Below are positions 25,292 through 27,556 of a stretch of DNA of 41,720 bases, one piece after another. The notes under the pieces were generated by a model. It had not been told where the DNA came from and ran no database searches. It saw only the letters and a program-made list of their open reading frames with translations. Position 1 is the stretch's first letter. Each line of letters starts with the position of its first letter. Made by a program: the position numbers and the translations under genes. Source of the stretch: a virus; the IMG/VR virus record IMGVR_UViG_3300001686_000001, positions 1-41,720 of that record; one strand, given 5' to 3'.

Positions 25292-27556
25292 CTAGAACTC
25301 ACGCCATTGCGCGCCGGGGTTCCACTCGCCCAGGGTGCGTTCCACGCGGGATCCTGCCATCTCCGGACGACGATCTGGGAGGATCTTGGCCGTGACCAGG
25401 TACCTCAACGCTGCCAGGGAGTTGTGCACCAAGACGCCATTGGCGAAGAATTCTGGACAATCCTCAATCTCCAGGTTGTACACCCTCTGCGGTGGTAGTT
25501 CGACGGGTGATCCAGGCGCATTTCTTAGAACAGTGCCCTGTGGCGAAGTACCTGTTACATTCAAAATTTTCTCCACAGGCACGACAAACCCTTGTTTCAT
25601 AGTCGAGTCTGTTAGTCCTGCGATAGGCAGATTTACATTTTCCCGAACAGAATCTAGCCCAGGTGAAGTACTCAAAACTTGTCCCACATTGGTCACAACG
25701 GCGAACGAGTGGCCTGGCTCGCATTGCTTCCCAAGCTCTGCGAGCCAACTCTTGACCCCATTCTTGACCCTTGGAAGTAGTCCTAAAATCGCTCGCCGCC
25801 TGGCCGAGACGAGAGATGTTTTCCCAAGACTCCTGCCAAGAAATACGCCCAGGTGTTCTTTCTTTGGAATGTTCTCGCAAGTGATCTCCGGCGGGGAGAC
25901 ATTCCAGGTTTTCAAGGGCATTGTTGAGAGGATTCTTGTCCTTGTGATGGATGTGATAACCGCTTGGAATCTCTCCATGAGCGTTAGCCCAGGCGCGACG
26001 AGCGCGTTTGTGAGCGTTCCTCTTCTCGTTAGCAGTAAGCACGTATCGGATTGTAGCAAACCAAGGGGCTTCCATCCCCGCAAGGTCAATATGGGATGTT
26101 GATAAGTACCCGTCAATCCCCCCAAATCCAACACGGGTTGGTTCTCTCCAGTTACCCCAGACCAAAGAACCTTCTTCCAACCTTGTCTAGTTAGAACCTT
26201 GTCAGAAGTGGCAACCGACTCAATTGGAATAGAACCGCGCGCAGTCGTAACTAAGGTTCCCGAAATGAGACAGTGTCCGTGGCGTGTTTCCCAGAAGGGA
26301 TCGACCACTTCTCCGGTGACCGCATCCAGCGGAGCGAACCTGACCTGGTCTGCCAGGACGGGGCAATCCTCCGTGAAGAACAACCTCGGGGAGCCGTAGA
26401 CGGGGTCAGAAGAATCTGCTGCGCGAGGATGCCAGTCGGGAAAAGCGAGGCTGGGGTCAGGGCGTAGTAGTTCTGCGATCCTGACGAGCCCTGCGCGCCT
26501 ATCGTTGTTAGCTGGTACGAGATTGATCCCGTGCTTGGCGAACTCGCTGTGAACGGTGTCCCCACGTCCTCCTGCCGAGCCGATCCCGAACCCCGTCCGC
26601 GATTGGATGGAAGGATCACAAAGAGCCAGAGAAGGTTCACCCCAACGATTAGCGCGATTAGTATGGATTCGTGACGCATGGTCTGAGATCAGTCCCGGGC
26701 TGTAGTACTCGCCGTAGACCACGACATGGCCCTCGGGAGAAACACCGGCAGGATACCACGCGGTGGGGTTGGTGACCCCGAAGTCCATCGCCTCCCAGCG
26801 GCGCCAATCGTAGGGCGGGTAGAAAGTGGGAACAACATGGATCTGAGGATCGAAGTGAGGAAAGCAAGCCGAGTCGATGGCCTCCCAGGAGCCCTCGATC
26901 AGACGGGCCTGCGTGGCCTCGGGAAGCTGCTGAAGTGACACCAGGTAACTATCCGCGTCGATATGAGGATTATCCCGGAACGTGGCCGGGAGGAAGATCC
27001 TATCCTTGCTACCCGACTCCAGGAACCGCTTACGAACCCAGGTCGTGCCGGGGCCTACGGGGTTACTGGCGCATCGAACGCGCAGTGGGATGTCAGAACC
27101 TTTCAGCTTACGCAGGCGAGAGAAGAGAAACGTGTACCCGATATCGTCGGGGAATTCGGTAACTTCGTCCCAAGCTATGTACTGGAACTCCGCAGACTGG
27201 TACCTGAGCCGGTCGGTGGGGGTCTGAATGTACCCGAAGGTGATCGCCGCTCCGGAAGGGAACTCGAACGTGTGAGTTTCTCGGTCGTAGCGCACATCCC
27301 GGAACGGCTTCAACCATTCGTGACACCTGTCCATGATCGCGCCGGGGAGAGCTAGGTCTGTGTAACTACGCCGGAAGATGATCGCCGCATAGTTCGGCCT
27401 GTCCACGTACTGGAGCGCGCCCATCAGAAGAGCATCGGACTTCCCCCCACCGGCCGCGCCTCCGTACAACCCCTCCAGGCCGTCATAGAGCAGGAACGCT
27501 GCCTGCTTGGGACTTGGAACGTGCGGGATATACGTCGTTAACTTCAACGTCGCCAT
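25292..27556 (-). CDS. Terminase large subunit with intein, 754-aa precursor
   Basis: Walker A GGAAGGGKS (32-40) and Walker B IAWDEVTEF (127-135) mark the packaging ATPase. AMDFGVTNP (Asp258) and LCDPSIQ (Asp314) start the RNase H-like nuclease. Residues 429-712 are an intein (25421-26272). Extein joining gives RHGH-SLAALRYLV, the place of the usual H-x-x-D-A-L-R-Y motif, but with Ala where Asp is common. ATG 27556 has GGAG upstream and is overlapped by a leader ORF whose first residues match its own. The mature protein would be about 470 residues, normal for the family. Confidence 0.85.
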   Translation of the reverse strand: MATLKLTTYIPHVPSPKQAAFLLYDGLEGLYGGAAGGGKSDALLMGALQYVDRPNYAAIIFRRSYTDLALPGAIMDRCHEWLKPFRDVRYDRETHTFEFPSGAAITFGYIQTPTDRLRYQSAEFQYIAWDEVTEFPDDIGYTFLFSRLRKLKGSDIPLRVRCASNPVGPGTTWVRKRFLESGSKDRIFLPATFRDNPHIDADSYLVSLQQLPEATQARLIEGSWEAIDSACFPHFDPQIHVVPTFYPPYDWRRWEAMDFGVTNPTAWYPAGVSPEGHVVVYGEYYSPGLISDHASRIHTNRANRWGEPSLALCDPSIQSRTGFGIGSAGGRGDTVHSEFAKHGINLVPANNDRRAGLVRIAELLRPDPSLAFPDWHPRAADSSDPVYGSPRLFFTEDCPVLADQVRFAPLDAVTGEVVDPFWETRHGHCLISGTLVTTARGSIPIESVATSDKVLTRQGWKKVLWSGVTGENQPVLDLGGLTGTYQHPILTLRGWKPLGLLQSDTCLLLTRRGTLTNALVAPGLTLMERFQAVITSITRTRILSTMPLKTWNVSPPEITCENIPKKEHLGVFLGRSLGKTSLVSARRRAILGLLPRVKNGVKSWLAELGKQCEPGHSFAVVTNVGQVLSTSPGLDSVRENVNLPIAGLTDSTMKQGFVVPVEKILNVTGTSPQGTVLRNAPGSPVELPPQRVYNLEIEDCPEFFANGVLVHNSLAALRYLVTAKILPDRRPEMAGSRVERTLGEWNPGAQWREF
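25421..26272 (-). mobile_element. Intein in the large terminase (284 aa)
   Basis: Block A begins Cys429 CLISGTLVTT; block B is GTYQHPILTLRGW with T-x-x-H. The C-terminal block VYNLEIEDCPEFFANGVLVHN has the penultimate His and final Asn, and Ser follows as +1 residue. The insertion is in the nuclease active-site region, a usual intein site. The middle of the terminase frame shows no endonuclease; an HNH gene lies there in the -1 frame. Confidence 0.85.
25464..26075 (-). CDS. HNH homing endonuclease nested in the intein in the -1 frame, 203 aa
   Basis: The frame (open from 26180; first ATG 26075) contains HIHHKDKNPLNNALENLECL ... GDHLREH, a complete HNH motif (about residues 41-69). Two zinc fingers follow: CDQCGTSFEYF ... 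FCSGKC and CRACGENFECN ... HCSKKC. All are typical of phage HNH homing enzymes. It lies wholly within the intein DNA but not in its frame. It has no clear ribosome-binding site; internal initiation or -1 frameshifting at 26117-26123 are possible routes. Confidence 0.8.
   Translation of the reverse strand: MEAPWFATIRYVLTANEKRNAHKRARRAWANAHGEIPSGYHIHHKDKNPLNNALENLECLPAGDHLREHSKERTPGRISWQESWENISRLGQAASDFRTTSKGQEWGQELARRAWEAMRARPLVRRCDQCGTSFEYFTWARFCSGKCKSAYRRTNRLDYETRVCRACGENFECNRYFATGHCSKKCAWITRRTTTAEGVQPGD

Follow-up and report, generated by a model that had tools for sequence, protein, structure and literature searches.

A putative HNH homing endonuclease gene overlaps a phage terminase intein in a different reading frame

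Inteins are usually described as carrying an in-frame endonuclease domain or as having lost the endonuclease. A further layout, the "fractured genes" of Dassa et al. 2009, reportedly consists of split inteins whose two halves are separated by a free-standing endonuclease gene. A group I intron harbors the gene for the endonuclease I-HmuI. The gene for TerL, the large terminase subunit, is regarded as essential. The closest published precedent for an out-of-frame HNH is an insert that has no intein: the ShiLan domain, an in-frame insertion in a mycobacteriophage DNA methylase with a "hidden" HNH in another frame (Arsenault, Gosselin and Gogarten 2025, PMC11855218). This insertion is without intein splicing domains and is thought to remain in the protein (PMC11855218). 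The same article states that overlapping reading frames are frequent in actinobacteriophages, citing a 2025 preprint by Gosselin, Arsenault and Gogarten (PMC11855218). That preprint concerns actinobacteriophage inteins with "non-canonical architecture" (bioRxiv 2025.01.02.630785); it may describe similar inteins and overlap with the present finding. The experimentally studied mycobacteriophage TerL inteins are all located in the ATPase domain (PMC5050341).

Here, we analyzed a stretch of 41,720 nucleotides of viral DNA (IMG/VR record IMGVR_UViG_3300001686_000001), referred to as the window in its full length. Judging from the window and its relatives, we consider it very probable that the locus listed in Table 1 contains a mobile intein, located in the TerL nuclease domain, and that its homing endonuclease comes from a separate, overlapping gene and not from an in-frame domain.

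Table 1. Coordinates of the TerL gene, its intein and the overlapping HNH gene in the window
Feature	Position	Strand	Remarks
TerL ORF (large terminase subunit) including intein	25292..27556	minus	754 aa; unbroken through the insert
TerL N-extein, covering the ATPase domain and the beginning of the nuclease domain (last residues ...ETRHGH)	26273..27556	minus	
Intein, Cys1 to Asn284, 284 aa	25421..26272	minus	begins CLISGT
Hint splicing fold, N part, residues 1-82	26027..26272	minus	pLDDT ~95-98, motifs
Cys1 of intein	26270-26272	minus	
TxxH (TYQH), block B position of intein	26096-26107	minus	
Intein-frame linker, residues 83-244, under the HNH gene	25541..26026	minus	pLDDT mostly <50; pN/pS ~1 in relatives
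Hint fold, C part, residues 245-284, ending LVHN	25421..25540	minus	
+1 residue Ser after VHN junction	25418-25420	minus	
C-extein of TerL (SLAALRYLV...)	25292..25420	minus	continues a D-H-x-x-D-A-x-R-Y-like nuclease-domain motif
Overprinted putative HNH endonuclease gene, 203 aa from ATG	25464..26075	minus, -1 frame	
HNH-frame ORF from TTG (mechanical), 238 codons	25464..26180	minus	
HNH motif (HHKDKNPLNNALENLECLPAGDHLREH)	25869..25949	minus	
Zinc finger 1 (C127, C130, C143, C147)	25635..25697	minus	invariant among aligned family members
Zinc finger 2 (CRAC...CSKKC)	25518..25586	minus	missing from one-finger family members

The N-extein matched 858 phage records (tblastn), and those with an annotation were terminases. 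A first-pass annotation of this DNA had described the TerL frame as running unbroken through a 284-residue intein, and we confirm this: the insert carries the junction and block residues of a class 1 intein (Cys1, TYQH, VHN and Ser+1). The intein frame matched Pfam Hint_2 below the curated cut-off (E = 6e-5) and NCBIfam intein_Cterm above the cut-off, and the intein profile reached gp41-1 (E = 1.8e-17). AlphaFold predicted a Hint fold with high confidence for residues 1-82 and 245-284 (pLDDT ~95-98), whereas residues 86-244 mostly scored below 50. Foldseek matches for this model were the Ssp DnaB, gp41-1 and DnaX mini-inteins. Only Hint and intein families were matched in this reading frame, which thus holds no canonical in-frame endonuclease, and IntN and IntC share one contiguous ORF instead of lying on separate ORFs as in a split intein. 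A search for group I intron RNA gave no Rfam intron match at 24300-28000 of the window with E values up to 1. By its motifs and its Hint fold, the window insert is a class 1-type intein, and the restored TerL would be expected to result from its splicing; an indirect indication is that named phages bear such an intein in this presumably essential gene.

The second frame, a -1 frame ORF of 238 codons for which the first-pass annotation had proposed an HNH motif and two zinc fingers, matched Pfam HNH_3 above the cut-off (E = 7.8e-14) and contains two Cys4 zinc-finger-like motifs. The profile searches that had been suggested for both frames thus place them in two distinct kinds of family. The HNH gene further matched phrog_15471 (HNH endonuclease, E = 1.8e-28); PF01844 was searched for in the window and is absent, HNH_3 being the fitting model. 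AlphaFold modeled the HNH frame with a mean pLDDT of 89. Foldseek found no clearly similar solved structure for this model in the PDB, and the family profile reached the HNH core of I-HmuI (1u3e) with an E value of 0.01 only. The gene overlaps both parts of the Hint fold, namely residues 66-82 of the N part and residues ~245-269 of the C part. An overlap with the C-terminal splicing part had been pointed out before, and it holds for the latter residues, but not for the segment VVPVEKILNV named at the time, which is predicted to belong to the disordered linker outside the Hint core. The HNH gene probably encodes the homing endonuclease that would spread the intein.

Could the HNH frame be a chance or relic ORF without function, lying in an ordinary mini-intein? 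Long ORFs are common in high-GC DNA, and synonymous resampling of the window HNH with its own codon usage left the intein frame free of stops with P ~0.12. The earlier statement that a frame of more than 200 codons is unlikely to stay open by chance is therefore not borne out by the window, which taken alone is compatible with chance, and the case rests on the relatives.

Searching with the HNH frame (tblastn), we found matches in annotated terL genes of Tetrasphaera phage TJE1, Acinetobacter phage Highwayman and Rhodobacteraceae phage LS06-2018-MD07, in each of which the HNH is out of frame with terL by the same offset. Scans of IMG/VR and GTDB added many relatives (at least 565 in one scan). 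We sorted 184 loci with IntN, IntC and HNH profiles and reduced them at 90% HNH identity to 147. In 102 of these, the HNH is overprinted out of frame inside an unbroken TerL and intein ORF, 11 lie between the halves of a split intein, 3 are partial, and 31 are free-standing (about half of the latter being full-length family members); since the relatives were collected by HNH similarity to mainly overprinted queries, the proportions 102:11:31 are not population frequencies. An in-frame HNH occurred in none of the 147. Nearly all of the 102 overprinted relatives possess Cys1, TxxH, (H/S)N and a C, S or T at +1, and in two cases described below the in-frame insert at the conserved site is, as for class 1 inteins, missing from a related allele. 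Their sources include Bacteroidota and Acidobacteriota genomes as well as phages of Acinetobacter, Tetrasphaera and Rhodobacteraceae, and locus GC ranges from 31 to 68%.

One relative frame is shared by 101 of the 102 overprints. The exception (L084:2224-3054) is a TerL intein of a different subtype whose HNH occupies the other of the two alternative frames; overprinting seems to have arisen independently there. L027, L029, L057 and L060 have a second TerL intein, located in the Walker A region, in addition to the overprinted one in the nuclease domain. In one locus of the overprinted type (L095), IntN and IntC are in different frames, probably owing to a frameshift or a sequencing error.

For the window itself, sequencing or assembly indels might in principle have split a canonical in-frame HNH intein, as two compensating indels could yield such a pattern. 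The same layout recurs in the TJE1, Highwayman and LS06-2018-MD07 genomes and in about 100 independent contigs, nearly all with one relative frame, and a second contig (L001, IMG/VR 3300001305) differs from the window by 1 nt across 5,084 nt, at position 23738, and is identical through the intein region. The retention of the same two frames in so many independent relatives excludes a sequencing indel as the cause, and we give this explanation practically no weight.

Outside the intein, the difference at 23738 is an indel within a small ORF (23687-23926). In the neighboring region of long ORFs, two adjoining 46-nt copies are near-identical (98%; 23474-23565). A 924-codon open frame (20773-23547, plus strand) lies there antisense to a 691-codon frame (21355-23430, minus strand), which is likely an effect of codon composition.

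Stop codons in the intein frame (HNH+1) are avoided over the HNH core of the overprinted loci: 0.10 stops per locus were observed against 3.02 expected from synonymous resampling, figures that are indicative, as here and in the following stop tests related loci are treated as independent. This remainder is due to L084 alone, which has 10 stops in +1 and none in its own intein frame (+2). Relatives in split inteins (5.9 observed, 6.0 expected) and free-standing relatives (5.2 observed, 5.7 expected) carry about as many stops as expected, so that avoidance is limited to loci in which a contiguous intein depends on the frame. The intein frame is open in 104 of 112 loci flanked by IntN and IntC, in comparison to 1 of 16 free-standing loci (Fisher P = 5.5e-13). 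The number of stops in the remaining frame, 19.5 against 20.0 expected, accounts for the position of the HNH in the -1 frame at almost every locus.

Selection was compared between the frames by pN/pS in 119 pairs from 33 loci with a start in block B. Over the first 17 HNH codons, the intein frame is the constrained one (0.40, HNH frame 1.21), while the relation is reversed in the middle region (HNH 0.32, intein frame 1.08) and near the C end (HNH 0.54, intein frame 1.03). Individual locus pairs agree with this regional pattern. Constraint thus passes from the intein to the HNH and back, and in between the intein frame must merely stay open; the AlphaFold model of the intein, with ordered Hint ends and a disordered middle, agrees with this switch. 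Of the earlier suggestion that both frames are functional, to be examined by such substitution tests in homologues, the part concerning the HNH frame is upheld in the relatives, whereas the intein frame beneath it turns out to be mostly unconstrained linker. For the chance ORF considered above, this leaves very little probability: the same DNA shows a pN/pS of ~0.3 in the HNH frame and ~1 in the intein frame of relatives, the catalytic His/Asn (H, H, N and H of the motif) and the zinc-binding Cys are invariant in the 39-50 aligned family members, and both frames are retained even in AT-rich phages.

The extent of the 238-codon frame given previously includes a start at TTG 26180. The ORF as such exists, but the HNH protein likely starts at ATG 26075, which gives 203 aa. 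This ATG sits inside GGA-TGG-AAG, the codons of intein Gly66-Trp67-Lys68 in block B, and several dozen relatives likewise have the HNH ATG within the block B codons for (Gly)-Trp-Lys. In the remaining loci, the start is mostly found 77-110 nt past TxxH. No Shine-Dalgarno motif was found at the HNH start of the window or at most loci with a block B start, many of which are A-rich upstream. We infer that ribosomes initiate internally at the HNH start. The frequent lack of a Shine-Dalgarno motif, together with the fact that 101 of 102 loci have the HNH in the -1 frame of TerL, would also suit a programmed -1 ribosomal frameshift, by which the HNH would be made as a TerL-IntN-HNH fusion. Yet in 82 of 100 overprinted loci the putative start is preceded, within 30 nt or less, by a stop codon in the HNH frame (median 12 nt), which hardly leaves space to shift and makes a fusion unlikely; a Shine-Dalgarno motif of at least 4 bases is present at about one third of the loci with other starts; and the fixed frame is explained otherwise, by the ~20 stops in the remaining frame of the HNH. 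We therefore regard frameshifting as distinctly improbable and internal initiation as the preferred reading.

Mobility was approached through pairs of invaded and empty alleles. TerL of Highwayman differs from that of Acba_21 by an exact 981-nt intein insert, with the other differences confined to ~200 nt on the left of the junction and 14 nt on its right and none for ~1 kb beyond on either side; at +1, the invaded allele encodes Cys and the empty allele Leu. Clustered flanking changes of this kind are a trace of co-conversion during homing, and those of Highwayman and Acba_21 look as they would after homing. A second pair, L025 and Bacteroides phage BS-TP2, differs by an exact 954-nt insert (+1 Cys and Gly, respectively), and no clear co-conversion tract was found in its flanks. 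A search for an empty-site counterpart of the window phage itself returned none. BS-TP2, the phage with the empty TerL site, also has an annotated HNH endonuclease immediately downstream of its portal gene and on the other strand (L186:6772-7350).

In both pairs, the intein and the HNH are gained or lost together, exactly at the splice junctions, and the inserted DNA contains no recognizable endonuclease besides the out-of-frame HNH. This bears on the possibility that two selfish genes are merely superimposed, the HNH being a homing gene that mobilizes mainly itself and the intein a passenger or harmless landing pad. Such independence is suggested by members of the same HNH family that are free-standing near TerL or within split inteins and interleaved with the overprinted ones on the tree. 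Once overprinted, though, intein and HNH cannot move apart, and both empty-site pairs move them together, so we consider this explanation unlikely. The core idea of the first-pass annotation, an HNH homing endonuclease out of frame within a real intein and forming one nested unit with it, is supported by the ~100 relatives, the frame-specific selection and the empty-site pairs.

With regard to origin, free-standing members of the same HNH family lie next to an intein-less TerL in PAE1, FBPa53, SN1, EauM-23, Shemara, Poludnitsa and BP10. Overprinted, free-standing and split states interleave on the HNH tree, a quick tree with a weak backbone on which supported branches require the overprinted state to have changed at least 6 times; the window HNH is divergent, with a long branch of 2.22. 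These observations speak for the fusion of a mini-intein with a free HNH gene that had been suggested early on, and the simplest story would be that a free terL-targeting HNH entered a mini-intein.

Taken together, we propose the following model. Translation of the TerL frame would yield one precursor, from which the Hint domain, made up of residues 1-82 and 245-284 with the disordered linker between them, would splice out. A second initiation within the intein, in the window at ATG 26075, would produce the HNH/zinc-finger endonuclease, which would cleave terL alleles lacking the intein, at the conserved site. With the intein allele as template, repair would then copy the whole cassette with short flanking tracts, and these may also provide the +1 Cys or Ser. 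Selection would retain the HNH protein sequence, both Hint ends and the open intein frame between them. The cassette probably goes back to a free-standing HNH gene directed at terL that became established in an endonuclease-less intein at its own target site, and loss of the open frame would leave a split intein with the HNH gene between the halves. We lean, by a modest degree, towards an even broader reading: overprinted inteins may be a widespread third form of endonuclease-intein linkage, besides in-frame fusion and split inteins with a free gene, and a reversible evolutionary bridge, in which a free HNH enters a mini-intein, borrows its start codon from block B and, upon loss of the open frame, leads to a split intein.

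Overprinted HNH inteins recur in about 100 distinct phage sequences and are a genuine kind of selfish element that has largely escaped notice. The annotations of TJE1 and Highwayman list a large terminase only; such TerL inteins would pass as mini-inteins with an unknown linker, and the mobility gene is missed. If our reading is correct, they provide a wealth of tractable overlapping genes, with one frame constrained in sequence and the other merely open, and they suggest a route by which inteins acquire endonucleases and then become split. The relatives also supply phage pairs that lend themselves to homing experiments, as well as a set of TerL Hint domains that seem able to accommodate unrelated linkers of ~160 residues.

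Compared with canonical endonuclease inteins, the window TerL intein has the same Hint fold, splice-junction residues and empty-site distribution, but its endonuclease is a separate overlapping gene instead of an in-frame domain. A contrasting case is L006:3155-4861, where a queC-like gene carries what looks like a canonical intein with its HNH in frame. While the mycobacteriophage TerL inteins are in the ATPase domain, those of the window type interrupt a nuclease-domain motif. The layout of the "fractured genes" does occur with the same HNH family, in L020, L031, L097, L100, L172 and Vibrio phages 1.238/1.245; the window and 101 other loci differ from it in having a contiguous intein overlapped by the endonuclease. 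Separate IntN and IntC TerL ORFs with the HNH between them were observed in L020 (Lactobacillus phage CL2), L031, L097, L100, L172, L179 and L013/L024 (the Vibrio phages), which are candidate natural split inteins, and most of their HNH genes are preceded by a good Shine-Dalgarno motif. With I-HmuI, the family shares a similarity of the HNH core and differs in the zinc-finger tail, and the window TerL locus is without a group I intron in the Rfam search described above. The ShiLan insertion is alike in that it stays open in the frame of the host gene and encodes a zinc-finger HNH in a different one, with the same relative frame (-1 in gp65) as the TerL intein HNH, and has a disjunct distribution suggestive of homing. 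The IntN and IntC profiles did not match ShiLan gp65, and its HNH is only a distant relative, whereas the TerL insert is a real intein with splicing domains.
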